From contig NC_035174.2 in NCBI RefSeq assembly GCF_001659605.2, positions 23,882,027-23,946,026 of the forward strand: DNA of 64,000 nt, in the 5' to 3' direction. A program made the translations under genes and the position numbers. The notes beneath the pieces were generated by a model. The model was not told the origin of the DNA, did no database searches, and saw only the letters and a list, made by a program, of their open reading frames with translations. Within the stretch, counting starts at the first letter, position 1. Every line of letters starts with the position of its first letter. Below are positions 1,026 to 61,187 of the stretch, piece by piece. Source of the stretch: Manihot esculenta (Eukaryota; Streptophyta; Magnoliopsida; Malpighiales; Euphorbiaceae).

Positions 1026-3309
1026 TGTAACGACCCCGAAATGGACCGTCACTGGCGCTAGGATTCAGGTCGGCTTAAGGCCGCCAGAGCCCGTAGCAAG
1101 CCTGTTATACTCTCTGTGTACCTGTAAATCTCATACATGATCATACATTTTTTGTGAAAAATAAAAACTCTTTTTATTCTGTACCAGGGCTTAACCTGTG
1201 CATGCACTATCGCTGTACTCAGTACTCTGTACCCCTGACTAGAGCTTGCTCTAGATGGGTGGTTTCATACCTGTTAAGCCTGGTTTTTCACATACTCTGT
1301 AAAACATATACATAAACACAGATCATGTACATAACAAAAGATTTACAACACTAACTAAGTCAAGCACAATTCTAACTTTTTATACAACTGTACATCTCTT
1401 TAAAATTACATGTCCACTCTAAGCTATTACAAGTCTCTTCTCTCTTCCTGTACTCTGCTGGACTTCCCCTGTACACTGTACAATGAACCTGCAAGACTGG
1501 GGTTAAGGGAGTGGGATGAGCTCTATAGCCCAGTGAGTAGAACAGTAAAACAATTCAGTAAAATATGATATGATGGAATGCATCATAACACAGACAATCC
1601 ACATCAAGAGTAAACCTGTCACCACATAGTCCCAGTAAACCGTGCCAGGCCGTAGACTGGGGTCCTGGTCTTCCTATCCCATATATGTATATGTGTATAT
1701 AACACCTGTACTTACCATTTACCAAGCATAGACTGTTTGCCTATACCCGCCAGGCCGTAGAATGGGGTCCTGGACATCCTGTACCTGCTAGGCCGTAGAA
1801 TGGGGTCCTGGACTTCCTGTCTGGAACTACTGGATCATTCAGCATTTACCCACACCAACAATATAGTTATGCAATGCAACATCTTTGTGAGTTCTAATGC
1901 AATCAACCTATTGCATAAACATGATGCATGAAAGATGCCAAAAGCAGTTAATGTCTCAATTAAAACGAGTAATAAGTTTAGTTCCACTCACCTCTGGCTG
2001 TCTGGACTGACTCTGCAGGTTCTGTAAACTCTGGAGCAGTACTTACTGCTGCTCTCTCTGGTTCCTCTAGTCTGTGTAAGCACAGAAAGACTCAAATGAG
2101 GGACCAAACTAGTTTAAAATAAACTCTATTAAACTCCCCAAGAATCCCCTTAATCTCACTCTAAAACTCATGCAAAGCATGCAAAAGAAAAGCTGGACAG
2201 GACACTTTCGGCGGCAGGTTCGGCGGCCGAAAGTCCTCTCCAGAGACGAAACTCATGCACCTTCGGCGGCCGAATCTCAATCTTCGGCGGCCGAACCCTT
2301 TCGGGGGCAAGTTTCGGGGGCCAAAAGACACTCCAGAGACGAAAGTCTCTAACCTTCGGCGGCACCTTCGGTGGCCGAATCCCCTAAACAGAGCCGAACT
2401 TCAAAACTCTCAGGGGCGAGCTGTGGCAGCCAAAGCCACCATGCAAGAGGTTCGACGGCCGAATGCTTCTTCGGCAGCCGAAGCTGAGTTCTTCAAGAAC
2501 TCAGCTTCGCCCGCAACCTTGCTCCTCCATCCTTTCCTCCTCTCTAAACATGCATAACTCCATTCCTCTCCACACATATACTCCAGTATATGTACAAAGG
2601 GGTCTAAAACTATCTAAAAGACCCCAACAAACAACACATCATAACACAAACATGCATAGACCATTAAAACATAAAAAACTCCACTTAACAACCTATACAT
2701 GTAACTCTACCCTTAACCTCTTTAAGAGCTGTTATAACTCATTAAAACAAGTTTACAAACTTCCCTTACCTCTGGAAAACAGAAGCTCAACAACCTGAAC
2801 ACCAAGCTATGCACCAACTTCTCTTCTCCTTCACTAAACCACCAAACCTTTCTTTTTAACTCAAAAACCTTCAAAACCATTTAAAAAACAACATAATTCT
2901 GCATGAGCAGCTAAAAACTTGCAGATGAGTCATGAAAGACGTGGCCTATCCTCTGGCAATGGTTTGGAAGCAACACCTGTCCAAATCAAATGCACAATAG
3001 CTGGCTGGCCAACTCAGCTTCGGCTGCCGAATCGCATGCAAAACCATGCAACATTCGGGGGCCGAACCTGAACTTCGGAAGCCGAACATTGGGCACTTTC
3101 GGCGGCCAAACTTACCTTCGGCGGCTGAAGTTGGCAAAAGTCCCCATTGTCTTTTCTCTTCAAAAACTCAAATCATTTCAACTTAAAAACCTTAAAACAT
3201 AACATAATATCTTAGAAAAACATAAATCCTACCCTTTTATAGAATTCCAACATCCCGGATTCCACCGAATAACAGGAATTCTGGTGCCGCATTCTAACCG
3301 GGTATTACA
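1026..3309 (-). repeat. Element 3, 3' LTR
   Basis: The LTR runs TGTAACGACC...GGTATTACA on the + strand, i.e. inverted TGTAATACC...GTTACA. It has TTCGG-palindrome clusters at about 2208-2480 and 3018-3130, the 16-nt perfect inverted repeat CTAGAGC-TT-GCTCTAG at 1239-1254, and tandem CCAGG...CCTGG units near 1640-1820. Splice-like sites on the minus strand are donor at 2769, acceptor at 2072, donor at 1991 and acceptor at 1489. Reading frames inside it are products of the repeats, not genes. Confidence 0.9.
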
Positions 3310-8300: not shown

Positions 8301-9409
8301 TAGAGCATCAGAAACCAGCCGGAATGCTTAACCCATTACCGATTCTAGAGTGGAAATGGGAGAACATAGCCATGGATTTTGTAGTGGGTTTACCAGTAGC
8401 GTCCAACAGAATAGACTCGATATGGGTGATTGTGGACAGACTCACGAAATCTGCTCATTTTCTTCCAGTACGGAGTAACTATTCTGTGGATAAGTTAGCA
8501 CAGGTCTATCTGGATGAGATAGTGAGATTACATAGAGTTCCAGTGTCTATAGTTTCAGACAGAGGACCTCAGTTTACCTCCCGCTTTTGGCGAAGTCTGC
8601 AAAGTGCGATGGGCACGAGATTAGATTTTAGTACTGCTTTCCACCCACAGACTGATGGACAGTCAGAAAGGACCATCCAGACCATAGAGGATATGCTTCG
8701 ACTATGTGTGTTAGACTTTGGCGGTTCTTGGAGGCAGCATCTACCTTTGGTGGAGTTTGCCTACAATAACAGCCATCATGCGAGCATCGGGATGGCTCCT
8801 TATGAAGCTTTGTATGGGAGGAAGTGCAGATCCCCTGTTTGCTGGGAAGAGGTAGGAGAGAAGGCTCTTGCAGGGCCAGAGTTAGTAGACATTACCAGTA
8901 GAATGGTGCCCATGATCAGAGAGAGAATCAGAACAGCGCAGAATAGACAGAAAAGTTATGCAGACGTTCGCAGAAAGCAGTTAGAGTTTCAAGAGGGTAA
9001 TTGGGTATTGCTGAAAGTGTCTCCAATGAAAGGAGTGGTTCGTTTTGGAAAGAAAGGTAAATTGGCTCCACGGTACATTGGACCCTTTGAGGTGTTGCAG
9101 AGGATCGGAAATGTGTCGTATAAGCTGGATTTACCTGCTTCTATGGAGAGAATTCACCCGGTATTTCATGTTTCTATGCTACGACAGTTTGTGTCAGATC
9201 CGAATCAGGTTCTGAGTGAGCCTGAGGTGGAGATTCATACGGATCTCACCTATATAGAGCAGCCAGTGCGGATTCTGGACACGCAGATCAGACAGCTAAG
9301 GAACAAGGAGATTCCGATGGTGAAAGTTCTATGGAACCACCATAATCTAGAAGAGTACACCTGGGAGACGCGGGAGTCTATGCTCCAGCAGTATCCATAT
9401 TTGTTTTAA
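5366..9409 (+). CDS. gag-pol: Element 4 gag-pol, N-terminally truncated but open
   Basis: The frame is open from the deletion junction to the stop, about 1347 codons, and starts inside the gag core ([11 protein letters not shown], about residue 286 of element 9). In order it has: gag C-terminus; two zinc knuckles ([26 protein letters not shown]); aspartic protease ([10 protein letters not shown]); RT with FIDD; RNase H ([22 protein letters not shown]); integrase with HHCC and D,D-35-E (SDRGPQF...QSE); GPF motif; and chromodomain ending QQYPYLF. One codon is missing in RNase H compared with element 9 (RQLKNEL for RQLKKHEL). No ATG initiates this frame near its 5' end, so expression is doubtful. 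It is almost identical to the pol of elements 9 and 11, the same young subfamily. Confidence 0.93.
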
Positions 9410-9474
9410 GGTTAGTTTTCTCCGTTTCATGTTTTCATTGTGTGTTTTCAGAACATTCGAGGACGAATGTTCTT

Positions 9475-9487
9475 AAGGAGGGGAGAA
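9475..9487 (+). other. Element 4 polypurine tract
   Basis: AAGGAGGGGAGAA directly precedes the 3' LTR start (TGTAATACC). Just upstream, 9451-9472 forms a perfect inverted repeat, GAACATTCG-AGGA-CGAATGTTC, found at the same place in the other chromoviruses of the window. Confidence 0.9.
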
Positions 9488-9555
9488 TGTAATACCCGGT
9501 TAGAATCCGGCACCGGAATTCCTATTGTCTGGTGGAATCCGGGGTGTTGGGATTC

Positions 9556-9563
9556 TATATAAG
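9556..9563 (+). promoter_or_regulatory. Candidate TATA box of the Tekay LTR
   Basis: TATATAAG lies 68 bp into the LTR. The same octamer is at 44265-44272 and 51644-51651 in element 11, while element 9 has TATCTAAG there. If used, U3 is very short and nearly all of the 2.2-kb LTR would be transcribed leader, as the splice-site pattern downstream would need. The start site itself is not visible. Confidence 0.5.
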
Positions 9564-10025
9564 GGAAGGAGTTATGTTTTCTCAGTGTTATGAGGTGTTT
9601 TCTGGTTTTACAGTTCTGTAGTTTTGAGTTGAAATGACCCAAGGCAGAGGAGCCAAGTTCGGCCGCCGAAGATAAGTTCGGCCGCCGAAAGTGCCCAATG
9701 TTCGGCTTCCGAAGGTAAGTTCGGCCCCCGAATGTTGCATGGTTTTGCATGCGATTGGGCAGCCGAAACAGAGTTGGCCAGCCAGCTGTTGGGTATCCTT
9801 AGTCAGCATTTTGGACAGGTGTTATGTCCAATTTGTTGCCAGACGTTTGGCCACGTCTCTCCTGGTTTATTTGCTGAGTTTGAGCAGCTCATGCAGAGTA
9901 TTTTGATCATTCACAAGGGGGTTGACTGTTTTGAAGCAAAACGTTAAGTTTGTGAGAGTTTGAGAGTTTGAGGAGAGTTGGTTCGTTTTTCTTAGTTCAG
10001 AGTGTTCAGCTTCTTGTTACAGGAG

Positions 10026-10626
10026 GTAAGTAATGCTCTTGAACCTGTTTATGTGTTTTCTGAAGGTTTTATGGAAGTTAAGGGAGAGAGATGCATGTTT
10101 AAATGAGAAGTAGTGGTTTTGATGAGTTATGCATGTATACATGTTTCTGTGTTATGTTTGATTTGTTGTTTGGGGTTATTAGATAGTTTTGGACCCCTGT
10201 GATCATATACATGAGTATATGTGTGGTGAGGAGTTGGAGTATATATGGTTTGAGTGGTTGAAGGGAAGGAGAAGATGGTTTGCCGTTGAAGCTGAGTTCG
10301 GGATGAACTCAGGTTCGGCAGCCGAAGGTTCATTCGGCCGCCGAACCTCTTGCATGGTGGCTTGGCTGCCACAGCTTGCCCCTGCGTGTTTTTGTATGTT
10401 CGGCTCTGTTTGAGGGATTCGGCCGCCGAAGGTGCCGCCGAAGGTGCTTGAGTTTCGTCTCTGGAGAGGACATTCGGCCGCCGAACCTGCCGCCGAAAGT
10501 GTCCTGTCTAGCTTTCTTTTGCATGCTTTGCATGGATAGTTGAGTGTGTTTAAGGGGATTCTTGGGGAGTTTAATAGAGTTGTTCTTAAGCTAGGTTTGG
10601 TCCCTCATTTGAGTCCATCTGTATAG
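10026..10626 (+). other. Candidate intron 1 in the LTR leader
   Basis: The segment runs from AGGAG|GTAAGTAATG to CTGTATAG|GTACAG. Equivalent intervals are 44746-45338 (element 11), 25645-26220 (element 8), 37203-37900 (element 9, minus), 41667-42303 (element 7, minus), 17978-18645 (element 6, minus) and 2072-2769 (element 3, minus). The bounding sites are kept although the interiors differ. The interior always carries the second TTCGG-palindrome cluster. The acceptor varies slightly (TATAG, TGTAG or ACAG within a few bases). Confidence 0.55.
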
Positions 10627-10715
10627 GTACAGACCAGAGGAACCAGAGAGAGCAGCAGTGAGTACTGCTCCAGAGGTTCAGAGCCTGCAGAGTCAGTCAG
10701 TCCAGATAGCCAGAG

Positions 10716-11232
10716 GTGAGTGGAACTAAACTTATGACTTTTAATTGAACCACAAACTGCTTTTAGCATATCTCATGCATCATGTTTATGCCATAGGTTG
10801 ATTGCATTAGTGTTCACGAATATGTTGCATTGCATCGTTATTTGGTGATGTGAGTGAATGCTGAAGGATCCAATAGTCTCAGACAGGAAGTCCAGGAGCC
10901 TTTGACTACGCCCTGGCAGGTATAGAGAAGTCCAGGAGCCTTTGACTACGCCCTGGCAGGTATATAGTAAAGTCCAGGAGCCTTTGACTACGCCCTGGCA
11001 ATGGTAAGTACACAGGTGTTATATACACATATACATATATGACAGGAAGACCAGGTGCTCGATTCTACGCCCTGGCACAGAGTTACTGGGACTATGTGGT
11101 GACAGGTTTACTCTTGATGTGGCTTGTCTGTGATATGGTGCATTCCATGAGATCATATTTTACTGAGATGTTTTACTGTTCTACTCACTGGGCTATAGAG
11201 CTCATCCCACTCCCTTAACCCCAGTTTTGCAG
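10716..11232 (+). other. Candidate intron 2 in the LTR leader
   Basis: The segment runs from CCAGAG|GTGAGTGG to a pyrimidine-rich stretch ending CCAGTTTTGCAG|GTTC. Equivalents are 45416-45934, 26323-26888, 36596-37119 (minus), 41262-41588 (minus), 17446-17908 (minus) and 1489-1991 (minus). The donor AG|GTGAGT(G/A)G is present in every Tekay LTR of the window. The interior holds the CCAGG...CCTGG tandem repeats. With intron 1 it leaves a middle exon of about 69-102 nt. Confidence 0.6.
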
Positions 11233-11685
11233 GTTCAGTGTACAGTGTACAGGGACAGTCCAGCAGAGTACAGGAAAAGTAAAGAGATCTGTAATAGCTT
11301 AGAGTGGACATGTAATATTAAAGAGATGTAATAGTTGTTGCTTGACCTAGTGATGTATGTTTTGTACATGATCTGTATTTGTATATATATATATGTTTTC
11401 CTGTATGTGAAAACCAGGCTTAACAGGTATGAGTTCACCCATCTAGAGCAAGCTCTAGCCAGGGATACAGAGTACAGAGTACATGAGTACAGAGTACAGA
11501 GATAGTGCATGCACAGGTTAAGCCTTGGTTCAGAAAAGAGTTTTATTTTCACAGAAAATGTATGATCATGTATGAGATTTACAGGTACACAGAGAGTATA
11601 GCAGGCTTGCTACGGGTTCTGGCGGCCTTAAGCCGACCTGAATCCTAGCGCCGGTGACGGTCCATTTTGGGGTCGTTACATCAAG

Positions 11686-15864: not shown

Positions 15865-18800
15865 TGACAGGAGCGGTTGTCGAAGCCGGTCAAAAATAAC
15901 CTTCTTGGTTACCTACAAATACAACTGTAGACAGTGATGAAGGATCGTATCCACAGAGAATTGATTACCTATTTATTTATCTTAATCAAGACCAATCAAA
16001 CCAATTGAAAGCACAAGTGAAAGCAAGTGATTGCAAATAGAACAAAAGTAAAGTGCAAGGAAAGTAAAAAGGGGGTTTTGAGATGATTTGATTAACAACT
16101 AATGAAAACAATTAAAACAGCAAGTAATCTAAAATAAAGAGAGAAATCAATAAGAGAAAGGTCTAGTTGAAGATATGGATCCACTTTGGTTGTTTGGGTT
16201 GATCATTGAAACATGGTAATCTTGATTAACTCAATAGGTTGGTTATGGGGGTGGAAGACGCTTCTCACCACCATGTCTTTCCTTATGAATAAACTGATTA
16301 GGGAACGTCCTCTAACCAATTACTAATCAACAAATTGCCAAGGAACGTCCTTGGGCCATAGGCATCAAAACAATTGCCAATTGCATAAAGAACAAGAAAG
16401 ATCCAAACCCTAACTACTCAAATGCATGAGATGTTGCTAGATCATGCAATTTCTTGGTCTTTACACCAAGTGTTCTTAGATCAGAATATTTCCAGCAATT
16501 ACGGACTAACAAATATCCTAATCAACAATCAATTAACTTTGCAATCAAGAATCAAGTGGCCAATTTGATCAAAACAACAAAGCAATCTTTATAATTAAGC
16601 ACAATTGCATGAATATTGAATAAATCAAAAGCAAACACTTTATGTTCAGATCTCACAACCTTTTAAACAACCTTAGTTTGAACCAAACTTCAACTAGAAA
16701 TAGGGTTTCAGCCACTCATGGCTGAACCAAAACAGAAAATAAAAGAAAAGAAGAAGAAAAGATGAAGAACTAAGGTGGAGGAGCCTTTGGAGAGCCTTGA
16801 TCAATCCCTTGATGGAAGATGATTATTCTTGGTCTTCTTGAGGCCTTTAAATAGATCTTGAGAGGCTGCCTTTTTTCCTTTTTAGTGTCCATGCATCTGT
16901 AACAGCCCGCTTACCGGACCATCACCGGCACTAGGATCCAGATCGGCTTAAGGCCGCCGGGACCCGTAGTAAGCCTACTGTCAACTCTGTGTACCTGATA
17001 AATCCCATACATGATCACACTTAAACTTAAAACTGTTACTTACTCTTCTCTTTTTTTTTTTTTTCTTTCTTTGCTTGACTATCTTTTCTTTTCTTGAAAC
17101 TTTTCTCATCAACTAAGCCTGGACTATGCATGCTCTGTCTGTATGCACTCGAAGAGTGATACCTGCTATGGTACCATACAGTAACTACAGAGATAGAAAG
17201 ACTACCATGCACCAAGCCTAGCTCATCATCACAACATTATCTCAATCATAAAATGATCATGTGCAAAGGGATAAACATACACTAGGGCCAAGCACAATTC
17301 TATAACTCACTATATAACTTACTATTACATCATTTCTATACATTACATAAACTCTGTACTGTACATCATTATCATGTCCACTATTCTATACTATTACATA
17401 TGCCTTTACCCTTGCTTTCTCTTTCTCTTTCTCTTCTCTGAGGCCCTGAAAAATGGGGTTAGGGAGAGGGATGAGCTACTAAAGCCCAGTGAGCGAAATC
17501 TATAAAAATCACATTTAAAACATGCTATCACATGATGCATCACTACACAAACATTTCACATCTCGGATTGGACATGATCCCAAAACTCCCTCTGTCAGTG
17601 CCCGGCCCCCAAAGGAGCTCACACAGGTCTTTCACTAACTACTCATGGTGCCCGACCCTATAAGGGCTCTCACAGGACTCATCCAAGGTAAATGCCCGGC
17701 CCCAAAGGAGCTCACACAGGACATACAATAATGACAGACTTATGGGCTATTGAGATCGCCTCGGTCCAATCCACATATACAAGTAATAATGCAATGCATC
17801 AACTTGATGAATACTAATGCAAAGCATCCTACATACACATGGCATAATGATGCATGAATCATGCTAAAACAATTCTTAACTTTTAAAATAAAGTTCTGTT
17901 CCACTCACCTCTGTCAACTGCTGAGCAGTCTCTGTAACTCTAACTCTGTGGGCCTCCTTGGTCTCTCGGGTCCGTACCTACACAGGTGGACTCAAATGAG
18001 GACCAAACTTACTTAAACATAACTCTTAATATCTCCCCAAAACCCCTCTAAAACATCATAGGCATGCATGGAAAAATGGGCAAAAGAAGGCTGGACAGAG
18101 CACCTTCGGCGGCACTTTCGGCGGCCGAAACCCCTCTCCAGAGACGAAACTCATGCATGTTCGGCGGCACCTTCGGCGGCCGAAAGCCTCGTCCAGAGAC
18201 GAAACTCATGCACTTTCGGCGGCCGAACTCCCTCTTTCGGCGGCCGAAAGTCTCGTTCTCACCCAAAAGCCTAGCTTTCGGGGGCAAGGTTTGGCAGCCG
18301 AAACTGCCTCCACAAGGGGTTCGGCGGCCGAACCTTGCTTCGGCGGCCGAACCTGGATTCTCCAGAAAGGCAGAATCCAAGCACAACTCATGCTCTCAGC
18401 CTCCAAAATCCTATCAAACACCCATAACATGCATACCAACACTTCTCAACTAACACACAACATATCTCATGCATATAGGGGCCTAAACACGAGCTCAAAC
18501 CCCAAAAACAACAACAAAACTCATACTAACTCATATGATTAACATATGCTCAAACTCATGCTTATACTCCAAAACATGCCATAAACCTCTCCAAAACTTC
18601 TAAAACTTGCTTTAAACATAAGGGGAGGTGAGGATCCATGCTTACCTCTTGAAGAACTAGAGGATTGATGATCCAAGCTTGGAGATAGGGGAAAACTCAC
18701 TCAAAATCTCCAAGTGCTCAACTTTGCTTCCTTTTGCTCAAAACTCTAAACCAAAACGCAAATCAAGTGAAAACATGCAAGATTTGAGGAAAACATGAAA

Positions 18801-19801: not shown

Positions 19802-19806
19802 CCCAC

Positions 19807-25114: not shown

Positions 25115-27462
25115 TGTAATACCTGGCAGATTCAGACATCGGAATTTCTACCGTCCGGTGGAATTCGGGGATGTCCGAGATTTCTAGAAGGGTATGAGAA
25201 AGATTTTCTAAATATTTTAAAGTGTTTTAAAAGTTTAGGGTAGAAAACGAGTTGAGTTTTGTGGAGAATTGGCGAAAGGAGTTTCTGTCATGTTCGGCCC
25301 CCGAAGGTTAAGTTCGGCCGCCGAAAGTGCCTAATGTTCGGCCCCCGAACGTTGCATGGTTTTGCATGCAGTTTCGGCAGCCGAAACTGGAGTGGTCGGC
25401 TAAGTTGTGCATGCTCCTCAGTCCGTGGTTTGGCCAGGTGTTCACCTCCAGATCATGACCAGAGGTTAGGCCACGTCTCCCTTGACTCATCTGCAAGCTT
25501 TTATCAGTTTAGGCAGAGGGTTTGGTTGTGTTTTCAGTAAGTTTGAACGTTTTGAGAGAAAAGAGAGAAAAGAGAGGTTTTGGTGGTTGAAGCTTGAGAA
25601 GGGGATTTGCTGTGTTCAGGTTGTTCCTCTTCTAGTTTCAGGAGGTAAGGGAAGTCTTTAAGTTTGTTTTAATGGTTATTAATAGCTTTTTAAAGAGGTT
25701 ATGGGAGTTTATATAGAGTTGCATGCTTAGGTTAGTTTTGATGAGTTTATGGAGAAGTTTGATTATGTGTTATGCTTGTTGTTTTGTTGGGGTTAATAGG
25801 TAGTTTTAGACCCCTTTGTACATATACCAGAGTATATGTGAGTTGAGGCGTTGAGTTATGCATGTGGAGAGGAGTTGTTGGTTGTGCACGAAGCTGAGTT
25901 CTGGATGAACTCAGGTTCGGCCGCCGAAGGGAGGATTCGGCCGCCGAACCCCTTGCATGGTGGCTTAGGCTGCCACAGCTTGCCCTTGAGTGTTTTTGAG
26001 GTTTCGGCCGCCTAAAGTGGAGATTCGGCCGCCGAAGGTATGCCAGTTTCGGCTCTGGACAGGGCATTCGGCCGCCGAACCTGCAGCCGAATGTGTTCTG
26101 TCTAGTTTTTCTTTTGTATGCTAAATGTGATTGTTTTGAGGTATTCAAGAGGGATTTTGGGGAGATGTTTATCAGTAATATAGAGTATATTTGGTACCTC
26201 ATTTGAGTCCTTCATTATAGGGTTGGACCCGAGGAACCGAGGTGTTTAGCAGTAGTAGCTGCTTCAGAGTTAGAGTTGGTCCAGAGCTAGTTAGCCCAGA
26301 GTTAGCCAAGCAGAGGCTACAGGTGAGTGGAACTAAACTGAATATTTTATTTTGAAAAATGACACGATTCTAGCATGATCCATGCATCATAAACTGCCAT
26401 GTTATGTATTAGGTTGTATTGCATTAGAATTCACGAAGATGATGCATTGCATAAGATGTTGTTTATGTGGATGAATGTTGGATGATCCTTAGCCCTTGAT
26501 AGAGCACAGAGTACAGATATAGAGATATGGCATGAGGTAGCCATACCAGGTCGCCCCTGGATAGTCTAGGTCGCTCCTGGTACTATAAGATAGACAGTTT
26601 GACCTGACTCAGATAGAGAAGTCCAGGTGAGGCCTAATCGCCCCTGGCACAGTTGGCCTTGTGATAGAGTCAGGAAAGAGAAGTCCAGGTGAGGCCTAAT
26701 CGCCCCTGGCAAGTTGGACATATTGTTATATGTATACAGTAAAGGGCTATTGGTGACAAGTTCATCCTTAAGGTGATATGTTTGTGATGTGATACATTTC
26801 ATGAAAGCATGTAATTAATGAACTGTTTACTGTTCCTTCTCACTGGGCTGTAGTAGCTCATCCCACTCCCTTAACCCCAGTTTTGCAGGTTCTGAGATAG
26901 CTATGGGAAGTCAAAGTCAGCAAGAGTACAGAGAATAGTGATGCATGAATGTATGGTTGTAATAGCATAGTGGACATGATGTAATTAAAAGATTAGTTGT
27001 CATGTAACGTATTGATATGTACTGTCAGTTACTGGATAGACTTGTGCTTTCTTTAGTGTCTTTGCCATAGTGTGATGTATGATTAATCCCTTTGTACATG
27101 CATCCTGTTTTACGTTTCTTGATGAGAAATGTGTGAGTTGGGCTTAACGTATGGCTTTGATGAGATACCAATGGGATGTGTTACAGATAAAAAGGGTTTC
27201 AATCCCTTGACCCACAGCAGATAGTAGTCCCTGGTATAGGCCCTGAGGGCCATTTCAGATTGACATATCTGAGTAGCAGCAGTTAAGCCTACAGAGTTTT
27301 ACAAGATTGTTGAGTCGTTTTGTATCATGTATGGAATTTATCAGGTACACAGAGAATATAGTTGGCTGACTACGGGTCCCGGCGGCCTTAAGCCAATCTG
27401 GATCCTAGTGCCAGTGATGGTTCGGACCGTTACTACGGGGTACCGGTTTCCGGGTCATTACA
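25115..27462 (+). mobile_element. Element 8: Tekay-type solo LTR, TSD CCTGA
   Basis: It is a 2348-bp LTR running TGTAATACCTGG...GGTCATTACA, flanked by CCTGA at 25110-25114 and 27463-27467. The partner LTR of element 7 has the empty site. It is a distinct subfamily with no TATATAAG near its start. It contains TTCGG clusters at 25292-25384 and 25915-26095, splice-like sites at 25645, 26220, 26323 and 26888, and two tandem copies of AGTCCAGGTGAGGCCTAATC followed by GCCCCTGG (about 26619 and 26681). No gene and no internal element sequence, so a solo LTR. Confidence 0.93.
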
Positions 27463-27467
27463 CCTGA

Positions 27468-36125: not shown

Positions 36126-36139
36126 GGGCTCTGATACCA
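36126..36139 (-). other. Element 9 primer-binding site (initiator tRNA-Met)
   Basis: The minus strand reads TGGTATCAGAGCCC three bases inside the 5' LTR, complementary to the 3' end of initiator tRNA-Met. The 200-nt leader to gag (35923-36125) is non-coding and almost identical to that of element 11. Confidence 0.92.
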
Positions 36140-36142
36140 ATC

Positions 36143-38422
36143 TGTAACGACCCCAAAATGGACCGTCACCGGCGCTAGGATTCAGGTCGGCTTAAGGCCG
36201 CCAGAACCCGTAGCAAGCCTGCTATACTCTCTGTGTACCTGTAAACCTCATACATGATCATACATTTTATGTGAAAATAAAACTCTTTTCTGAACCAAGG
36301 CTCAACCTGTGCATGCACTATCTCTGTACTCTGTACTCATGTACTCTGTACTCTGTATCCCTGACTAGAGCTTGCTCTAGATGGGTTCACTCATACCTGT
36401 TAAGCCTGGTTTTCACATACAGGAAAACATATATACATATACAGATCATGTACAACACATACATCACTAGGTCAAGCAACAACTATTATATCTCTTTAAT
36501 ATTACATGTCCACTCTAAGCTATTACAGATCTCTTTACTTTTTCTGTACTCTGCTGGACTGTCCCTTCCTGTACACTGTACACTGAATGCTGAACCTGCA
36601 AAACTGGGGTTAAGGGAGTGGGATGAGCTCTATAGCCCAGTGAGTAGAACAGTAAAGCATCTCAGTAAAATATGATCTCATGGAATGCACCATATCACAG
36701 ACAAGCCACATCAAGAGTAAACCTGTCACCACATAGTCCCAGTAACTCTGTGCCAGGGCGTAGAATCGAGCACCTGGTCTTCCTGTCATATATGTATATG
36801 TGTATATAACACCTGTGAACTTACCATTGCCAGGGCGTAGTCAAAGGCTCCTGGACTTTGCTATATACCTGCCAGGGCGTAGTCAAAGGCTCCTGGTCTT
36901 TGCTATACGTGCCAGGGCGTAGTCAAAGGCTCCTGGTCTTCCTGTCTGTGACTATTGGATCATTCAGCATTTACTCACATCATCAAATAACAATGCAATG
37001 CAACATATTCGTGAATACTAATGCAAGCAACCTATGGCATAAACATGATGCATGAGATATGCTAAAAGCAGCTTGTGGTTCAATTAAAAATCATTAGTCT
37101 TAAGTTTAGTTCCACTCACCTCGGGCTAATTGGACTGACTGACTCTGCAGGTTCTGAATCTCTGGAGCAGTACTCACTGCTGCTCTCTCTGGTTCCTCTG
37201 GTCTGTATAAGCACATAAAGACTCAAATGAGGGACCAAACAAGCTTATGACCGACTCTATTAACCTCCCCAAGAATCCCCTTACACTCACTCTAATAGTC
37301 ATGCAAAGCAAGCAAAAGAAAGCTGGACAGAACACTTTCGGCGGCAGGTTCGGCGGCCGAATGTCCTCTCCAGAGACGAAACTCAAGCATCTTCGGCGGC
37401 CGAATCTCTATGTTCGGCGGTCGAACCCTTTCGGGGGCAAGTTTCGGAGGCCACAAGGCACTCCAGAGACGAAAGTCTCTAACCTTCGGCGGCACCTTCG
37501 GCGGCCGAATCCCCCAAACAGAGCCGAACATGCACAACTCGCGGGGGCAAGCTATGGCAGCCTAAGCCACCATGCAAGAGGTTCGGCGGCCGAATGAACC
37601 TTCGGCTGCCGAACCTGAGTTCATCCAGAACTCAGTTTCAACGGCAAACCTTCTCCTTCTTTCCTTCAACTTCTCAACCCATGCCAACTTCACCTCCTCA
37701 ACATACATATACTCATGTATATGATCACAGGGGTCCAAAACTAGCTAATAACCCCAAACAACAAAACAAACATACATATAAACATGTAGCCATGCATAAC
37801 TCATCAAAACTATCATTAAGAACCTAAACATGCATTTCCTTCCATACATCCCCCTAAAACCTTCAGAAAACATATACACAGGTTCTAACTCGTCCCTTAC
37901 CTTTGTAAACAGGAAGATGCACGTTCAGAACAAGGGAAAACGGATCAACCTCTCAAACTCTCAAAAACGTAACTTTAGTTTCTCTCAAACTCTCTCAAAC
38001 TCACTTTTGCAAGCACCTCAAGCTTCTGTATGATCACCCAAAACATGTACAGGTGAGTCATAGAGACGTGGCCATTTCATGGCAAGAATCTGAGGCCAAC
38101 ACTTGTCAAAAACCATGACTCAGCTCACCAGCCAACTCATCGTCGGCTGCCCAATCACATGCAAGACCATGCAATCGTTCGGGGGCCGAACTCACCTTCG
38201 GAAGCCGAACACCTTCGGCGGCCGAACTTACTTTCGGCGGCCGAACTTGGCTCAACTGCCTTAGGTCATTTCAACTCAAAACTCACTTCCCTTAACCTTA
38301 AAACATTTAAACACATCATAACACTTAATAACACACAACTCCTACCCTTAGATAGAATCCCAATACCCCGGATTCCGCCAGATAATAGGAATTCCGGTGC
38401 CGGATTCTAGCCGGGTATTACA
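36143..38422 (-). repeat. Element 9, 5' LTR
   Basis: It is near-identical to 28650-30929. Splice-like sites on the minus strand: donor AAAG|GTAAGG at 37900, acceptor ATACAG at 37203, donor GAG|GTGAGTGG at 37119, acceptor TTTTGCAG at 36596. TTCGG clusters are at 37336-37615 and 38178-38250. A TATA-like TATCTAAG lies about 70 bp from the LTR start. The differences seen (near 37094, 37420, 37607, 38219 and 38395) are all C/T or G/A. Confidence 0.95.
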
Positions 38423-40514: not shown

Positions 40515-40534
40515 CCCTATGCTCTGATACCATC
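40515..40534 (-). other. Element 7 primer-binding site
   Basis: The minus strand reads TGGTATCAGAGCATAGGG beside the 5' LTR. Twelve bases match the initiator tRNA-Met type, then it diverges from CCC of the other elements. The leader between it and gag (40238-40514) is non-coding and has an acceptor-like TTGTTCTTCAG near 40249. Confidence 0.8.
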
Positions 40535-42842
40535 TGTAACAGCCCGGAAACCGGTACCCTCTTTGTAACGGCCCAAACTGCTCGGCACTAGGATCCAGAT
40601 CGGCTTAAGGCCGCCGGGACCCGTAGTAAGCCTGCTATGAACTCTGTGTACCTGATAAAATCCCATACATGATCCAACTCGACTCCTAACTTTTCTTAAA
40701 ACATTACCAGACTTAACCTTAAAAACCACTCAGATATACTAATCTGAAATAGCCCTTAGGGCTATCTGTAATACACCAGTGACACGTAACCAAGTAACCT
40801 CCATGCACTATGCGCTGTGTCATAGAACCCACCCTGAAGGGTCAGCATATCATAAGTTAACTTGGCTACCATAGAGTCACAGGAATCAAACCTGGTCTTC
40901 TCTATTGGCCTCTCTATAGATCACAGGAATCAAACCTGGTCTTTCCTCTGCACTGGTCTTAGGTCAAAGGAAGTAATCCCTGTCTTCCCTCACAGTTATA
41001 ATTCACTGGGTTTTCGAAACACAACATTTATTAAGCCTGGTTTGACTCATTTCTCATCAAGAAACTGAAAACAGGATACATGCATATACAAGGGATGAAA
41101 TACTATAGGCAAAGCACATACTAATCCACAAGCACACTATCTGACTGTTTATTACATCTGTACTACATATCTCTTTAATTTACATCATGTCCACACTAAC
41201 TATACACAAGCATACTGAAGCCAACACTCTGATGCTTCTGACTTCCCAGCTAACCTTGTCCCTGCAAAACTGGGATTAAGGGAAAGGGATGAGCTATAAA
41301 GCCCAGTGAGTAGAAACACTGAAAACAGTTCATTCATACGCATTTTATATGAAAATGCATCACAACTCAAACATTCCATATCTTGGATTAGACATGACCT
41401 CAAAACTCCCTCGACGGGCTATTGATGTCGCCTTGGTCCAATCCTCATAAACAATGAAAATGCAATGCACCATATTCGTGATTCTAATGCAATCACCCTA
41501 AGATATATCATGGCATCCATGATGCATGAACTATGCTAACAAGCATTCTGTTATTTTAATATAAAATATTAAGTTTAGTTCTACTCACCTCTGCTCCTCT
41601 GGCAGAAACTGTACTGACTCTGCAACTGCTAATCCTGACGACCTCCCTGAACTGTCGGGTCCAATCCTACACAAATGGACTCGAATGAGGTGTCAAACAT
41701 ACGCTTATCAACGCTTAAACAATCCCCCATAACCCCTTCTGAACCTCTAAAAACAATCACACAAAGCATGCAAAAGAAGGCTGGACAGAACACATTCGGC
41801 GGCAGGTTCGGCGGCCGAATGTCCTGAACAGAGCCGAAACTCAAGTACCTTCGGCGGCCTAATATCGTCTTTCGGCGGCCGAACCCTTTCGGGGGCTACT
41901 TTCGGAGGCCGAAACCCCTAAACAGAGCCGAACCTCAAGGCACTCAGGGGCAAGCTGTGGCAGCCTAAGCCACCATGCAAGGGGTTCGGCGGCCGAATCC
42001 TCCCTTCGGCGGCCGAACCTGAGTTCATCAGGAACTCAGCTTCGTGCACAACCTCTCTCTTTCATCTTTTCCTCCTCTCTAAACATGCATAACTCCAAAC
42101 CTCACCTTACATATACTCAAGTATATGCTCCAAAGGGGTCCAAAACTACCTATCAACCCTAACAAACAACACTCATAACACATAATCAAACTTCTCCATA
42201 AACTCATCAAAACTAACCTAAGCATGCAACTCTACATAACTCCCATAACCTCTTTAAAAAACTATTAAAAAACCATTAAAACAAACGTAAAGACTTCCCT
42301 TACCTCCTGAAATCAGAAGAGGAACAACCAAACTCAGCAACTCCTCCTCCAAAGCTTCAAACCCTCACAACTCTTCTTTTCTCTCCAAAACGTTCAAAAC
42401 CTTTTGCAAATGATCAACCCTCTGCATAGGCTGATTAAAAACTTGTAGATGAGTCAAGAGAAACGTGGCCTAACCTCTGGTCATGATCTGGAGGTGAACA
42501 CCTGGCCAAATCACGGACTGAGGAGTGTGCACAGCTTAACCGACCATCCCAGTTTCGACTGCCGAAACTGCATGCAAAACCATGCAACTTTCGGGGGCCG
42601 AACTTAACATTCGGGGGCCGAACATTGGGCACTTTCGGCGGCCGAACTTCACATTCAGGGGCCGAACATGACAGACACTCCTTTGGCCATTTCTCCCTAA
42701 AACTCAACTATTTCCTAATCAAACCGTTAAAATACTTTAAAACATTTTAGAAAACCTTCACTCTACCCTCAGGAAACCTCTGACATCCTTGAATCCCACC
42801 GGACGGTAAGAATTCCGATGCCGGGTGTAGCCGGGTATTACA
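40535..42842 (-). repeat. Element 7, 5' LTR (2308 bp)
   Basis: The LTR runs TGTAACAGCCCGG...GGTATTACA. Splice-like sites on the minus strand are at 42303 (donor), 41667 (acceptor), 41588 (donor GAG|GTGAGTAG) and 41262 (acceptor TTTTGCAG). TTCGG clusters are at 41795-42020 and 42552-42665. The hairpin CTGAGTTC-ATCAG-GAACTCAG is at about 42019-42039. No gene. Confidence 0.93.
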
Positions 42843-44196: not shown

Positions 44197-46376
44197 TGTA
44201 ATACCCGGCTAGAATCCGGCACCGGAATTCCTATTGTCTGATGGAATCCGGGGTGTTGGGATTCTATATAAGGGTAGGAGTTATGGTTTCTATGTGTTAT
44301 GAGGTGTTTTATGGTTTTACAGTTCTTTAGTTTTGAGTTTTGAGTTTTGAGTTGAAATGAACCAAGGCAGAGGAGCCAAGTTCGGCCGCCGAAGATAAGT
44401 TCGGCCGCCGAAAGTGCTCAATGTTTGGCTTCCGAAGTTCAGGTTCGGCCCCCGAATGTTGCATGGTTTTGCATGCGATTCGGCAGCCGAAGCTGTGTTG
44501 GTCAGCCAGCTTTTGAGCCATCCTTAGTCAGCATTGTGGACAGGTATTATGTCCAGCTTGTTGCCAGAAGTTGGCCACGTCTCCCTTGGTTTATTTGCTG
44601 AGTTTGAGCAGCTCATGCAGGAGTTTGCTCGTTTACCAAGTTTTGAAGGTTGTGAAGCAAAAAGTGAGTTTGAGAGAGTTTGAGAGTGTGAGAGGAGGTG
44701 ATCCGTTTTCCCTTGTTCAGAGTGTGTAGCTTCTTACTACAGGAGGTAAGTGATGTTCTTGAATATGTTTTCTGAAGGTTTTAGTGGGATTTGTGGTAGG
44801 AGATGCATGTTTAGGTTTTTAATGGGAGTTTAGATGATTTATGCATGTATACATGATTATGTGTTATGTTTGTTTTGTTGTTTGGGGTTATTAGATAGTT
44901 TTGGACCCCTGTGATCATATACATGAGTATATGTGTGTTGAGGAGTTGGAGTAGATATGGTTTGAGAGATTGAAGGGAAGGAGAAGATGGTTTGCCGTTG
45001 AAGCTGAGTTCTGGATGAACTCAGGTTCGGCAGCCGAAGGTTCATTCGGCCGCCGAACCTCTTGCATGGTGGCTTAGGCTGCCACAGCTTGCCCCCGCGA
45101 GTTGTGCATGTTCGGCTCTGTTTGGGGGATTCGGCCGCCGAAGGTGCCGCCGAAGGTGCTTGAGTTTTGTCTCTGGAGAGGACTTTCGGCCGCCGAACCT
45201 GCCGCCGAAAGTGTTCTGTCCAGCTTTCCTTTACTTGCTTTGCATGACTATTAGAGAGAGTTTTAGGGGATTCTTGGGGAGTTTAAATAGAGTTAGTCAT
45301 AAGCTAGTTTGGTCCCTCATGTGCGTTTATCTGTATAGGTACAGACCAGAGGAACCAGAGAGAGCAGCAGTGAGTTCTGCTCTAGAGCCTGCAGAGTCAG
45401 TCCAGTTAGCCCGAGGTGAGTGGAACTAAACTTATGACTTTTAATTAAACCACAAACTGCTTTTAGCATATCTCATGCATCATGTTTATGCCATAGGTTG
45501 ATTGCATTAGTAGTCACGAATATGTTGCATTGCATTGTTATTTGGTGATGTGAGTGAATGCTGAATGATCCAATAGTCTCAGACAGGAAGTCCAGGAGCC
45601 TTTGACTACGCCCTGGCAGGTATAGCGAAGTCCAGGAGCCTTTGACTACGCCCTGGCAGGTATATAGCAAAGTCCAGGAGCCTTTGACTACGCCCTGGCA
45701 ATGGTAAGTACAGAGGTGTTATATACACATATACATATATATGACAGGAAGACCAGGTGCTCGATTCTACGCCCTGGCACAGAGTTACTGGGACTATGAG
45801 GTGACAGGTTTACTCTTGATGTGGCTTGTCTGTGATATGGTGCATTCCATGAGATCATATTTTACTGAGATGTTTTACTGTTCTACTCACTGGGCTATAG
45901 AGCTCATCCCACTCCCTTAACCCCAGTTTTGCAGGTTCAGTGTACAGTGTACAGGGATAGTCCAGCAGAGTACAGGAAAAGTGAAGAGATCTGTAATAGC
46001 TTAGAGTGGACATGTAATATTAAAGAGATGTAATAGTTGTTGCTTGACCTAGTGATGTTTGGTTTGTACATGATCTGTATATGTATATATGTTTTCCTGT
46101 ATATGAAAACCAGGCTTAACAGGTATGAGTTAACCCATCTAGAGCAAGCTCTAGTCAGGGATACAGAGTACATAGTACATGAGTACAGAGTACAAAGACA
46201 GTGCATGCACAGGTTAAGCCTTGGTTCAGAAAAGAGTTTTATTTTCACAGAAAATGTATGATCATGTATGAGGTTTACAGGTACACAGAGAGTATAGCAG
46301 GCTTGCTATGGGTTCTGGCGGCCTTAAGCTGACCTGAATCCTAGCGCCGGTGACGGTCCATTTTGGGGTCGTTACA
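44197..46376 (+). repeat. Element 11, 5' LTR
   Basis: The LTR runs TGTAATACC...GGTCGTTACA with TATATAAG at 44265-44272. TTCGG clusters are at 44381-44495 and 45024-45212. Splice-like sites are at 44746 (GAG|GTAAGT), 45338 (TATAG), 45416 (GAG|GTGAGTGG) and 45934 (TTTTGCAG). Three tandem AGTCCAGGAGCC...CCCTGG units lie at about 45588-45700. No gene. Confidence 0.95.
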
Positions 46377-46379: not shown

Positions 46380-46393
46380 TGGTATCAGAGCCC
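46380..46393 (+). other. Element 11 primer-binding site
   Basis: TGGTATCAGAGCCC lies three bases after the 5' LTR and matches the initiator tRNA-Met primer type. The leader to 46599 is non-coding. The acceptor-like CAG seen before gag in the relatives is CAA here (GTGTTTCCAA). Confidence 0.92.
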
Positions 46394-57230: not shown

Positions 57231-59059
57231 TGACAGGAGCGGTTGTTGAAGCCGGCCAAAAATAACCTTCTTTGGTTACCTACAATTTACAACTGTAGAC
57301 AGTGGTGAAGGATCATACCCACAGAGAATCGATTACCTATTTGTTTATCTCAATCAAGACCAATAAAACCAATTGAAAACACAATAGAAAGCAAGTGATT
57401 GCAAATAGAACAAAAGTAAAGTGCAAGGAAAGTAAAAGGGGGGGTTTTGAGATGATTTGATTAACAACTAATAAAAGCAATTAAAACAGTAAGTAATCTA
57501 AAATAATAGAGAAATCAATAAGAGAAAGGTCTAGTTGAAGATATGGATCCACTTTGGTTGTTTGGGTTGATCATTGAAACATGGTTACCTTGATTGATTC
57601 AATAGGTTGGTTATGGGGGTGGAAGACGCTTCTCACCACCATGTCTTTCCTTATGAACAAACTGATTAGGGAACATTCTCTAACCAATTACTAATCAACA
57701 AATTGCCAAGGAACGTCCTTGGGCCATAGGCATCAAAACAATTGCCAATTGCATGAAGAACAAGAAAGATCCAAGCCCTAACTACTCAAACGCATGAGAT
57801 GGTGTTAGATCATGCAATTTCTTGGGTTTTTACTCCAAGTGTTCTATGGACAGAATATTTCCAGCAATTACGGACTAACAAATATCCTAATCCAACAATC
57901 AATTAACTTTGCAATCAAGAATCAAGTGGCCAATTGCATCAAAACAACAAAGCAATCTTAGAATCAAAGCACAATTGCATGAATATTGAATAAAATCAAA
58001 GACAAAAGTTTCTGTTCAGATCTCACAACCTTTTAAACAACCTTAGTTTCAACCAATCCTCAACTAGAAAAAGGGTTTCAGCCCCTCATGGCTGAACCAA
58101 ACAGAAAATAAAAGAAAAGAAAGCAAAAGATGAAGAACTAGGGTGAGAGAGAGCCTTAGAGGCCTTGCCGAATTTCCTTGGAGAAGAGGTGGAACCAAAT
58201 CTGTCTTCTTGTCTTCTTGAAGCCTTTAAATAGGTGTTGGAAGGCTGCCTAGGGTTTCATGGAAGTCCAGGAGGCTTTTAGAGGCTGTCCAAATTGTCCT
58301 TGGTGTTGCATGTGCCTTCTTTGTGCATGAGTGAAGGCAAAAACGAGTTGCATGTATTTGAAGGCAAGTGGGGGCACTTTGGTCTTTTTACTTGCTGCCC
58401 AAGGTCTTCAAGATGTTGCCTAAAGAGTTAAGAGGCTGCCCATGCACTAATAAGGAAGGGGGAGACTCCTTTTGAATTTTGAATGTGCATGGCACTAAGT
58501 AGGAAGCATGTGATCTTTGGATTTTCTTTCCTTAATAAGGGGGATCTTGAAATCCAATAATTGAATGTGAATATTGAAGATTTGGATCTCAAGATATTTC
58601 CCTTATTTGGCTCCTCAAATATGGCAACTTGGGATATGGCTTTTGGAACAAGGAAGGAGAGCAATAGAGCGCATTTTCGGCTGCCTAAGTTGAGTTTCGG
58701 AAGCTGGAATTTTGGAGGTTCGGGGGCCGAAGGTTGGGATTCGAGGGCCGAAGGTAGTGGAATTTCGTCTCTGTCTGCATGGTTCGGCCGCCGAAGGTGG
58801 TCCACTTTCGTTTCTGGAGTCCTCTTTCGGCCGCTGAAGGTTGCCGCCGAAGGTGACTGAGTTTTGGCTTCCGAAAGTTGCCTCCGAAGGTTGCTTCTCT
58901 AGTTTTGGCTTCTTTTGGCATTTTTAAGAGCATTTTCTCCAAATTGTTTCTTCACACCTAATACTTGCAAAACATGATTAAAACCACAAAATTAGGTAGA
59001 ATAGGTGCAAATAAACATCAATAAGATCATGAAAATATGGACTAAAATATGCTCTATCA
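57231..59059 (-). repeat. Element 10, 5' LTR (1829 bp)
   Basis: On the + strand it runs TGACAGGAGC...GCTCTATCA. The TTCGG-type cluster is at 58677-58890, about 170-380 bp from the LTR's own 5' end. Most of the LTR is A-rich, non-coding and has no other repeat I recognise. It contains the uninterrupted version of the element 11 insertion site at 58454-58467. Confidence 0.93.
58677..58890 (-). repeat. TTCGG-palindrome cluster in the Athila-like LTR
   Basis: Within about 210 bp lie TTCGGCTGCC, TTTCGGAAGC, TTCGGGGGCCGAA, TTCGAGGGCCGAA, TTCGGCCGCCGAA, TTTCGGCCGCTGAA and TTCCGAAAG, with TTTCGTCTCTG and TTTCGTTTCTGGA in between. The same two ingredients (palindrome plus TTTCGTCTCTGGA) make up the clusters in the unrelated Tekay LTRs, e.g. 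29843-30122. Confidence 0.85.
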
Positions 59060-59064
59060 TACAT

Positions 59065-61187
59065 GATCATACATTTTCTGTGAAAAATAAAAACTCTTTT
59101 CTGAACCATGGCTTAACCTGTGCATGCACTATCTCTGTACCCTGTACTCTGTACTCTGTACTCTATACCCCTGACTAGAGCTTGCTCTAGATGGGTTATC
59201 TCATACCTGTTAAGCCTGGTTTTTCACATACTCTGTAAAACATATACATAACTAGATCATGTACATAACAAAAGATTTACAACACAACCACTATGTCAAG
59301 CACATTTCTAACTTTATACACAACTGTTACATCTCTTTAATATTACATGTCCACTCTAAGCTATTACAAAGCTCTTCTCTTATCCTGATCTCTGTTGGAC
59401 TTCCCCTGTACACTGTACACAGAACACTGAACCAGCAAAACTGGGGTTAAGGGAGTGGGATGAGCTCTATAGCCCAGTGAGTAGAACAGTAAAACAAATC
59501 ATTAAAACATGATCTAATGGAATGCATCATAACACAAACAATCCACATCAAGGGTAAACCTGTCACCACATAGTCTCAGTAACTCTGCCGTGCCAGTGCA
59601 TAGAATCGAGCACCTGGTCCTCCTGTCTATATGTATACGTGTATATAACACCTGTACTTACCATTGCCAGGGCGTAGTCAAAGGCTCCTGGACTTCTGCC
59701 AGGGCGTAGTCAAAGGCTCCTGGTCTTAACTCAGAGACTATTGGTTCATTCAGCATTTACCCACATCAACAAGTAACTATGCAATGCACCATATTCGTGT
59801 ATTCTAATGCAATCAACCTATAGCATAATCATGATGCATGAAATATGCTAAAAACAACATTCCATTGCTCAATTAAAAGAATTAAGTTTAGTTCCACTCA
59901 CCTCTGGCTATCTGAACTGACTGACTCTGCAGGCTCAGTAAACTCTGGAGCAGTACTCACTACTACTCTCTCTGGTGCCTCTGGTCTGTGTAAGCACAGA
60001 AAGACTCAAATGAGGGACCAAACTAGCTTAAGAATAACTCTATTAAACTCCCCAAGAATCCCCTTAAACTCACTCTCAAACTCATGCAAAGCATGCAAAA
60101 GAAAAGCTGGACAGAATACTTTCGGCGGCAGGTTCGGCGGCCGAAAGTCCTCTCTAGAGACGAAACTCAAGCACCTTCGGCGGCCGAACCTCAACTTTCG
60201 GCAGCCGAACCCTTTCGGGGGCTGAAAGGCACTCTAGAGACGAAAGTCTCTAACCTTCGACGGCACCTTCGGCGGCCAAACTTCCCTCTAGAGCCGAAAG
60301 TCCAAAAGCTCGGGGGCAAGCTTGGGCAGCCGAAGTCACCTCCTCTCACCTGCTCAGGGGTTCGGCGGCCGAATGTTCCTTCGGCTGCCGAACCTGAGTT
60401 CATCAGCAGGGTAGAAACTTGCCTTGCCTCACGCCAAATGCACAAAACTCCCCTCCAAATCCACACCTCACTTCCTCAACTTGCATACACCTAAGTATAT
60501 GCTCAAAGGGGTAAAAAACTACCTAAAAACCCCAACAACAGAAAACACATAACACATAAACAAGCCTTCTCACAAAATCATCAAAAACTCTTCTTTTAAC
60601 CTATTCATGCAACTCTCTCCATAAACCCCATAAATCTTCCATAAAACATGAAAACAAGATCAGGATCTTCACTTACCTCTTAAAATCAAGTAGATGAATG
60701 ATCCTAAGGTGGAGTTTTGAAGCAACTCTCCTTCAAACTCTCCAAAATTCACAACTTTGTGTTTAAAGCTCAAAACCTTCGAAATAACATAAAACTCAAT
60801 CAAATATTTGCAAACTTGGATGAAAACATGAAAGAATGCTCAAAAAGGACAGGGTCTCACCTCAGAAAGTGAAAGAAACGGCGAAGCTTATCCTTTCAAC
60901 CTACTGAGGGCCGTTTTATAGGTGGCTGGCCAGACGACCTTCGGCGGCCAAACGTGAAACCGAAAGCCATGCATGTTTGGCGGCCGAAAGTCACCTTCGT
61001 CGGCCGAACCTGGCTTTTCTGCCTTGGTTCATTTCTCTTTAAAACTCATTGCATTTTCACTTTAAAACATTAAAACATTCCAAATTACTTTAGAAAAACA
61101 TAAATCTTACCCTTCTAGAGAATTCCGACATCCTGGATTCCACCGGACGACAGGAATTCCGATGCCGGACTCTAGTCGGGTATTACA
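59065..61187 (-). repeat. Element 2, 5' LTR, main piece
   Basis: The piece is 2123 bp, making 2236 bp with the part at 42855. It is a diverged Tekay LTR. The acceptor-like site near 59428 has decayed (TTTTGCTG), while donor GAG|GTGAGTGG (near 59898) and AAGAG|GTAAGT (near 60675) remain. TTCGG clusters are at 60118-60400 and 60940-61012. Two GCCAGGGCGTAGTCAAAGGC units lie near 59665-59720. It ends TCGGGTATTACA. No gene. Confidence 0.9.

Follow-up and report, generated by a model that had tools for sequence, protein, structure and literature searches.

Plant long terminal repeat (LTR) retrotransposons are generally without introns, and a 2025 review gives Ogre and EVADE as notable exceptions (PMC12786077). 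The introns described for EVADE from Arabidopsis (PMC12786077) and for Ogre from pea and Medicago (PMC12786077, PMC6317226), which are likewise plant LTR retrotransposons, lie between or within the coding regions of gag and pol and outside the LTR. The window analyzed here, a 64,000-nucleotide stretch of Manihot esculenta DNA (NC_035174.2, positions 23,882,027 to 23,946,026), is a nest of LTR retrotransposons of the chromovirus type. An earlier note on it had claimed that each well-preserved LTR carries the sites of two introns (donor 1, acceptor 1, donor 2, and acceptor 2) behind a TATA box and under selection for splicing. It was found that the four sites are conserved and that a third acceptor, which is new here, is present downstream of the primer-binding site (PBS), 6-10 nt ahead of the start codon of gag. 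The leader of these chromoviruses is thus probably a multi-intron 5′ untranslated region, predicted from the four LTR sites and acceptor 3. Of the earlier claim, the conserved two-intron arrangement under constraint stands, most strongly at donor 1, while the picture of exactly two introns gives way to the third acceptor. No coding-region intron of the EVADE, BARE1, or Ogre type was seen, as all five sites lie upstream of the gag AUG; the coding regions themselves were not scanned for introns.

The earlier note listed 28 coordinates, four sites in each of seven LTRs, and all 28 carry GT or AG as claimed. Donor 1 reads GTAAG in all seven LTRs; donor 2 reads GTGAGTGG in six and GTGAGTAG in e7 (elements are numbered as in Table 1). 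An eighth window LTR near 59 kb, absent from that list, keeps both donors and has lost acceptor 2. The eight window LTRs, one per family, make up the eight-family alignment, and 28 fetched close relatives of e4 were added to them in a 36-LTR alignment. Two larger sets comprise 21 A-like rows and 31 F-like rows, the latter from 30 distinct loci (F_e7 and L049 represent the same locus). Two window LTRs interrupted by insertions (15039-15864 with 19802-21260; 23627-25114 with 27462-28287) were neither joined nor counted. All rows of the eight-family alignment read AGGTAAG at donor 1 and AGGTGAGT at donor 2. Among the twelve invariant runs of at least 7 columns, these two have the least conserved surroundings (mean conservation 0.70 around donor 1 and 0.76 around donor 2). 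Donors were scored with a score matrix, a score of at least 4 being called strong. GT is kept in 8/8 families at 11 columns, of which only donors 1 and 2 are strong in every row (antisense control, 0/5). Both donor GTs are kept in 36/36 LTRs, compared with 12 fully kept of 195 reference GTs and 3 of the 89 at LTR 100-1000, and family F keeps both in 31/31 rows. When the scan was made blind to the sites of the note, donors 1 and 2 were the only donors with a mean score of at least 4 kept in both the A-like and the F-like rows. A neighboring donor-like CAGGTACAC is lost in 14/31 F rows.

Upstream of acceptor 1 there is a near-invariant CCTCAT, which I take to fit the branch-point consensus. All 66 rows, which represent 65 distinct LTRs, have an AG after CTCA; the distance is 19 nt in 63 rows and 25 nt in 3. 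The 25-nt rows are e9, e3, and the 59-kb LTR, where the first AG is absent and the second present. Thus, an AG stands at every coordinate that had been given for acceptor 1, but in e9 and e3 it is not the aligned base of the other LTRs but a CAG about 6 nt downstream; in these three LTRs, the predicted acceptor is shifted while an AG is retained. Acceptor 2 is TTTTGCAG in five of the seven listed LTRs, TCTTGCAG in e3, and TTTTTCAG in e6. An AG 15-16 nt from CCTTA, in the form TTTTGCAG or a near one, was found in 30/30 F loci and in 33/36 other rows; among the other three, e8 and e6 have the site by coordinate, and the 59-kb LTR has truly lost it. Identity among the eight families falls from 0.825 over the final 40 nt of intron 2 to 0.543 over the following 60 nt, a drop that would be expected where a 3′ splice site precedes a noncoding exon. 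The corresponding values are 0.957 and 0.887 within family F and 0.995 and 0.985 within the A-like set. Inside intron 2, e4 LTR 1287-1348 (10774-10835) holds the invariant stretches CATGCATCAT, TTGCATTAG, and TGCATTGCAT.

The predicted exons are distinguished by the absence of ATG. Over seven families, the 105-nt segments that precede donor 1 contain 0 ATG in 735 nt against 18.7 expected from composition, and exon 2 contains 0 in 578 nt against 8.6 expected, while ATG is above expectation upstream, in intron 1, in intron 2, and at the LTR end. The same exons emerge without any prior choice of sites. The longest ATG-free stretches common to the eight families are LTR 429-545 (116 nt), which ends at donor 1, and LTR 1132-1247 (115 nt), which covers exon 2; the third is 51 nt. 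In the 36 LTRs, the top two shared stretches are 439-545 and 1171-1247. AGT, a commoner trinucleotide than ATG, has no shared free stretch longer than 64 nt. ATG accounts for 0/91 NTG in the two exons versus 442/1338 elsewhere, and an AT is followed by G in 0/16 cases versus 442/1061. Per 100 nt, the A-like rows have 0.27 ATG before donor 1 and 0.05 in exon 2, versus 2.4-3.2 in the upstream part and the introns; the F-like rows have 0.09 and 0, versus 2.6-4.3. Exon 2 is also T-poor, with a mean of 16% where the introns have 33% and 32%. With 7 ATG in 490 nt and 11.2 expected, no clear shortage of ATG is seen over the first 70 nt of exon 3, so that the Gag mRNA is less likely to arise by a join of donor 2 to acceptor 2.

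It was revealed that the leader past the PBS ends in a T-rich tract and a CAG just before the gag ATG. The forms of acceptor 3 in the window are TTTCCAG, TTTCCAAAG, TTTTTCAG, and TTTTTTCAG, and in family F GTGCTAATG...TTGTTCTTCAG. All 18 distinct leaders of the A-like or D type have the AG, which ends 6-9 nt before the ATG (CAG in 17, AAAG in e11), and TTCAG stands 10 nt before the ATG in 12/12 distinct F-type units with a PBS and an open reading frame (ORF). Three rows were left out of the leader comparison, namely L005 (not a leader), L051 (no ORF found), and L066 (PBS about 600 nt past the LTR end), and L008 and L029 share one leader. When joined, the last 105 nt of predicted exon 1, exon 2, and the bases past acceptor 3 have 0 upstream ATG in 14/17 distinct units and 1 in 3/17, whereas the unspliced equivalent stretch has 59-72. 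No conserved donor was found between the PBS and acceptor 3 in the leaders compared, so the partner of acceptor 3 would most simply be donor 2, or in A-like LTRs perhaps CAG|GTATGA at LTR 1940. Other candidates were rejected: CAG|GTTAGA after the PBS is missing or broken in several leaders, CAG|GTACAC in the LTR is weak as a donor 3 and lost in 14/31 F rows, and a micro-exon between TTTCAG and donor 1 is not kept in every family. The PBS lies between donor 2 and acceptor 3. A join of these two sites would remove it, and the worry of the earlier note, that genomic RNA must escape splicing, thereby becomes a possible division of labor between mRNA and genome. At 23332-23626 (minus strand), an F-type LTR end is fused directly to an A-like leader without 7 nt (the spacer and the first PBS bases), a mosaic at the LTR-PBS border.

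If donor 1 is joined to acceptor 1 and donor 2 to acceptor 3, about 110-130 nt of exon 1 and 69-102 nt of exon 2 would precede the gag AUG in a mature leader of some 200 nt. In the spliced mRNA, the first AUG would be that of gag and the PBS would be missing, so that this RNA would serve translation only. Reverse transcription would use the unspliced RNA, which has about 60 upstream AUGs and the PBS, as the genome. Because priming needs the PBS, spliced RNA would not be copied, and the introns would be protected in the LTRs. In the 3′ LTR, acceptor 2 and the poly(A)-like motifs downstream of it may make a terminal-exon acceptor, which is the least certain step. In the 5′ LTR, the upstream donors might damp poly(A) use, an idea drawn only by analogy with U1 in foamy viruses. 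A bolder proposal, which I put forward tentatively and hold with less confidence than the leader structure, is that, in an abundant lineage of plant chromoviruses, spliced mRNA is the only source of Gag-Pol; one splice choice would sort the transcripts into mRNA, which could not be copied, or genome, which could not be translated, and would keep the introns in the LTRs. If true, splice choice would settle how one retroelement RNA serves as mRNA and as genome, a long-standing question. It would also give a reason for the conserved noncoding stretches in long plant LTRs, and solo LTRs would bring with them complete exons and donors that could alter genes in their vicinity.

Where does transcription start? 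The version that follows from the earlier note has a start near LTR 100, at a TATA box at LTR 68 (TATATAAG), with exactly two introns (donor 1 to acceptor 1, donor 2 to acceptor 2) and a spliced RNA that keeps exon 3 and the PBS. The box is indeed perfect in e4 and e11, as it is in e3 (TATAAAAG), and a strict TATA[AT]A stands there in 14/21 A-like rows but in 0/31 F-like rows; it is not supported as a general promoter. The zone without AUG extends back no further than about 110-130 nt from donor 1, and a start about there is more likely than one at the TATA box, while a start near LTR 100 is possible for some families. TATA motifs near LTR 719/729 are a possible start too, but donor 1 would be left unexplained. 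The account of the note agrees with the conservation of the four sites and would give a use to acceptor 2, which a join of donor 2 to acceptor 3 does not need. On the other hand, it would leave 38 upstream ATGs in the e9 leader, its exon 3 is not clearly AUG-poor, and acceptor 3 has no place in it. Reverse transcription of such a spliced RNA would moreover yield intron-less LTRs. In a joined-exon query, no intron-less LTR junction was found among the 40 places scored of 2,980 candidates, a weak test, as all 40 lie on contigs C1 and C2. Within the window, no exon-junction sequence was found with up to 5 substitutions allowed. An 8-nt overrun in the joined-exon query (L079) is an acceptor variant, not a spliced copy. 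Five stretches in viral contigs came up as possible relatives, none of which was confirmed, and a further viral-contig search found none. I consider the two-intron version with a start at the TATA box unlikely.

In plants, TGTAA and ATTAAA are poly(A)-like motifs. Such motifs lie 58-106 nt past acceptor 2 in A-like and F-like rows alike, with the donors upstream of them. They would suit a stand-alone three-exon noncoding RNA (exons 1, 2, and a terminal 3) polyadenylated soon past acceptor 2, which might come from 3′ or solo LTRs as well; e6 and e8, read as solo LTRs, keep all four sites. Solo LTRs may keep their sites by descent alone, however, and neither acceptor 3 nor the ATG-free state of exons 1 and 2 would be explained, and I regard such an RNA as slightly less likely still. 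The least likely alternative is that the motifs are not spliced but kept for other reasons, such as DNA-level regulatory elements or recombination among LTRs: the mosaicism of the e4 and e9 LTRs, which are 78% alike toward the 5′ end and 94% toward the 3′ end, suggests that blocks spread by recombination, equally invariant blocks without splice motifs exist (CATGCATCAT, TTCGGCCGCCGAA), and three of the four sites are not above their flanks in the A-like set, but the constraint fits splice grammar (a donor, a fixed branch-to-AG spacing with a shifted yet retained acceptor, a T-poor, ATG-free exon, a drop past acceptor 2, and an acceptor at the gag AUG) in families about 65-70% alike.

Several observations weigh against a spliced multi-intron leader all the same. 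The earlier note had looked to an excess of conservation over the flanks at all four sites. In the 36 LTRs, the 7-mer-minus-flank contrast bears this out at donor 1 (rank 4 of 2106) and not at donor 2, acceptor 2, or acceptor 1 (ranks 199, 762, and 1204); the test is weak in that part because 28 LTRs are near-identical downstream of LTR 1100 (seen on 21 of them). At the aligned place, AG is kept in 91.7% of the 36 LTRs for acceptor 1 (rank 58 of 205) and in 94.4% for acceptor 2 (rank 27). Only two families are many-copied, the others having one copy each, and the rows are related, so the counts are not independent events. No promoter motif was recognized near the proposed start. Acceptor 2 is conserved although the join of donor 2 to acceptor 3 needs no such site. 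A-like LTRs also keep CAG|GTATGA (LTR 1940, 21/21; not found in F), so the partner of acceptor 3 is inferred. The absence of intron-less LTRs fits no splicing equally well as protected splicing. As for the exons, an ATG occurs before donor 1 in 6/21 A-like and 3/31 F-like copies and in exon 2 in 1/21 A-like copies. Rarer trinucleotides give longer shared free stretches (TAC, 263 nt), and single families have ATG-free stretches of equal or greater length, up to 136 nt in A-like (1378-1514, 1681-1817) and up to 181 nt in F-like (867-1048) rows. Both exons are poor in the AT dinucleotide (1.5 and 0.9 per 100 nt versus 5.9-9.7), and the antisense CAT is scarce there too; thus, the avoidance of AUG is only partly specific.

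To which clade do these elements belong? Their open frames encode gag, a zinc knuckle, protease, reverse transcriptase, RNase H, integrase, and a weak chromodomain. In the e9 frame, which is in two pieces, Pfam matches follow the order gag, protease, reverse transcriptase, RNase H, and integrase with the chromodomain after integrase, as in a chromovirus. The Chromo E value is 2.4e-4 in this frame and 3.1e-5 in the frame 3390-4874, both slightly below the Pfam cut-off. The LTRs are 2.2-2.35 kb long, start with TGTAATACC, and mostly end with GTTACA. The PBS (TGGTATCAGAGC, initiator-Met type) lies 2-3 nt past the LTR wherever a leader is present. The e4 frame stops at 9409, and a purine tract (AAGGAGGGGAGAA) adjoins the 3′ LTR at 9488. 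Tekay (Del) elements are described as having the chromodomain upstream of the polypurine tract and an ORF that does not run into the 3′ LTR, while the chromodomain of CRM lies downstream; beet Tekay LTRs are about 2.5-3.0 kb, with an initiator-Met PBS at most 3 bases from the LTR (PMC3605345). The present elements agree with Tekay in the layout of frame end and purine tract, in LTR length, and in PBS position, although the frame-end layout is shared with other clades except CRM, and such LTR lengths and PBSs are also found elsewhere. Thus, the features are consistent with Tekay, the label given in the earlier note, and speak against CRM. Between the e4 pol stop and the purine tract (9400-9487), there is an acceptor-like TTGTGTGTTTTCAG, whose equivalent in e11 is TTTTAGG.

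Table 1. Coordinates of the LTRs, predicted introns and exons, primer-binding sites, and third acceptors in the window.
Feature	Position	Strand	Basis or remark
e4 3′ LTR (family A)	9488..11680	+	self-comparison; LTR ends TGTAATACC...GTTACA
e4 AUG-free end of predicted exon 1 (LTR 429-538)	9916..10025	+	longest ATG-free stretch common to 8 families
e4 predicted intron 1	10026..10626	+	AG|GTAAGT ... CTCAT-N-TATAG|G
e4 predicted exon 2, purine-rich	10627..10715	+	T 13%, 0 ATG
e4 predicted intron 2	10716..11232	+	AG|GTGAGTGG ... TTTTGCAG|G
e11 predicted intron 1	44746..45338	+	splice-site check
e11 predicted exon 2	45339..45415	+	composition
e11 predicted intron 2	45416..45934	+	splice-site check
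e11 primer-binding site TGGTATCAGAGC	46380..46391	+	
e11 acceptor 3, last intron base, TTTCCAAAG, weakened	46592	+	7 nt before gag ATG 46600
e9 predicted intron 1 (shifted acceptor, CAG at 25 nt from the branch)	37203..37900	-	
e9 predicted exon 2	37120..37202	-	
e9 predicted intron 2	36596..37119	-	
e9 primer-binding site	36128..36139	-	
e9 acceptor 3, last intron base, GTTTCCAG	35930	-	7 nt before gag ATG 35922
e8 (solo LTR 25115-27462) predicted intron 1	25645..26220	+	
e8 predicted exon 2	26221..26322	+	
e8 predicted intron 2	26323..26888	+	
e7 (family F, LTR 40535-42842) predicted intron 1	41667..42303	-	
e7 predicted exon 2	41589..41666	-	
e7 predicted intron 2	41262..41588	-	
e7 primer-binding site	40521..40532	-	
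e7 acceptor 3, last intron base, GTGCTAATG...TTCTTCAG	40248	-	10 nt before ATG 40237 of 192-aa ORF
e6 (solo LTR 16899-19182) predicted intron 1	17978..18645	-	
e6 predicted exon 2	17909..17977	-	
e6 predicted intron 2	17446..17908	-	
e3 predicted intron 1	2072..2769	-	
e3 predicted exon 2	1992..2071	-	
e3 predicted intron 2	1489..1991	-	
Eighth LTR (lacks its 3′ end), with both donors and without acceptor 2 (TTTTGCTG)	59057..61187	-	
Acceptor 3 (TTTTTCAG), element with leader at 14.8-15.0 kb	14821	-	gag ATG 14811
Acceptor 3 (TTTTTTCAG), leader at 23.3-23.6 kb	23412	-	gag ATG 23404

Family F elements (38423-40534, minus strand, and others on contigs C15, C7, C10, and C11) have LTRs about 4.6 kb apart with about 2.1-2.3 kb between them and an ORF of 192 amino acids with a zinc knuckle (39659-40237). 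Family F is probably a non-autonomous relative that keeps all five splice sites. The LTRs at 9488-11680 (e4) and 36143-38422 (e9) are 78% alike in the first kilobase and 94% in the remainder. In e4 LTR 190-300 and 820-1010, near-palindromes of the type TTCGGC(C)GCCGAA are repeated, some of them invariant in 8/8 families, in exon 1 and intron 1 alike. A 1,230-bp pair of another repeat (42967-44196 and 57230-58459, 98% identical) flanks the e11 nest, and a 91% copy lies at 15862-16871.

Is such an arrangement known elsewhere? In the open-access literature, no title or abstract start among the matches listed was on introns in a plant chromovirus LTR or on a spliced-out PBS, which is weak evidence of novelty, subscription journals being mostly outside its scope. 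In the main text of a paper on active sunflower Tekay elements, the words "intron", "splicing", and "spliced" occur nowhere (PMC11728184). The sunflower elements Tyran and Varan have some likeness to this prediction, as direct RNA reads include spliced transcripts (one isoform with two introns) as well as unspliced ones; those isoforms alter Gag or reverse transcriptase coding, and Tekay is absent from the expressed set of that study (PMC7730604).

BARE1, a Ty1/copia element of barley, is described as making separate RNAs for translation and replication, with an intron more U-rich than the exons and a spliced RNA that is not replicated, which resembles the present prediction. It differs in that a 104-nt intron at the end of gag leads to a Gag-only RNA and that the pools come from two promoters (PMC3735527). 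Unlike that intron, those predicted here are located in the LTR and leader, and splicing them out would delete the PBS. In foamy viruses, R contains a splice donor ahead of the poly(A) signal, and U1 binding at this donor suppresses poly(A) use in the 5′ LTR; these are vertebrate viruses with one leader donor (PMC3694450), whereas two complete introns are predicted here in each LTR, with gag expressed from spliced RNA. Finally, Cer1, a Ty3/gypsy element of Caenorhabditis elegans, resembles the present elements in that consensus splice sites are skipped in a long RNA. Its Gag-Pol comes from an apparently unspliced 8-kb RNA, and splicing leads to another protein (PMC3315495); the reverse is predicted for the chromoviruses of this window.

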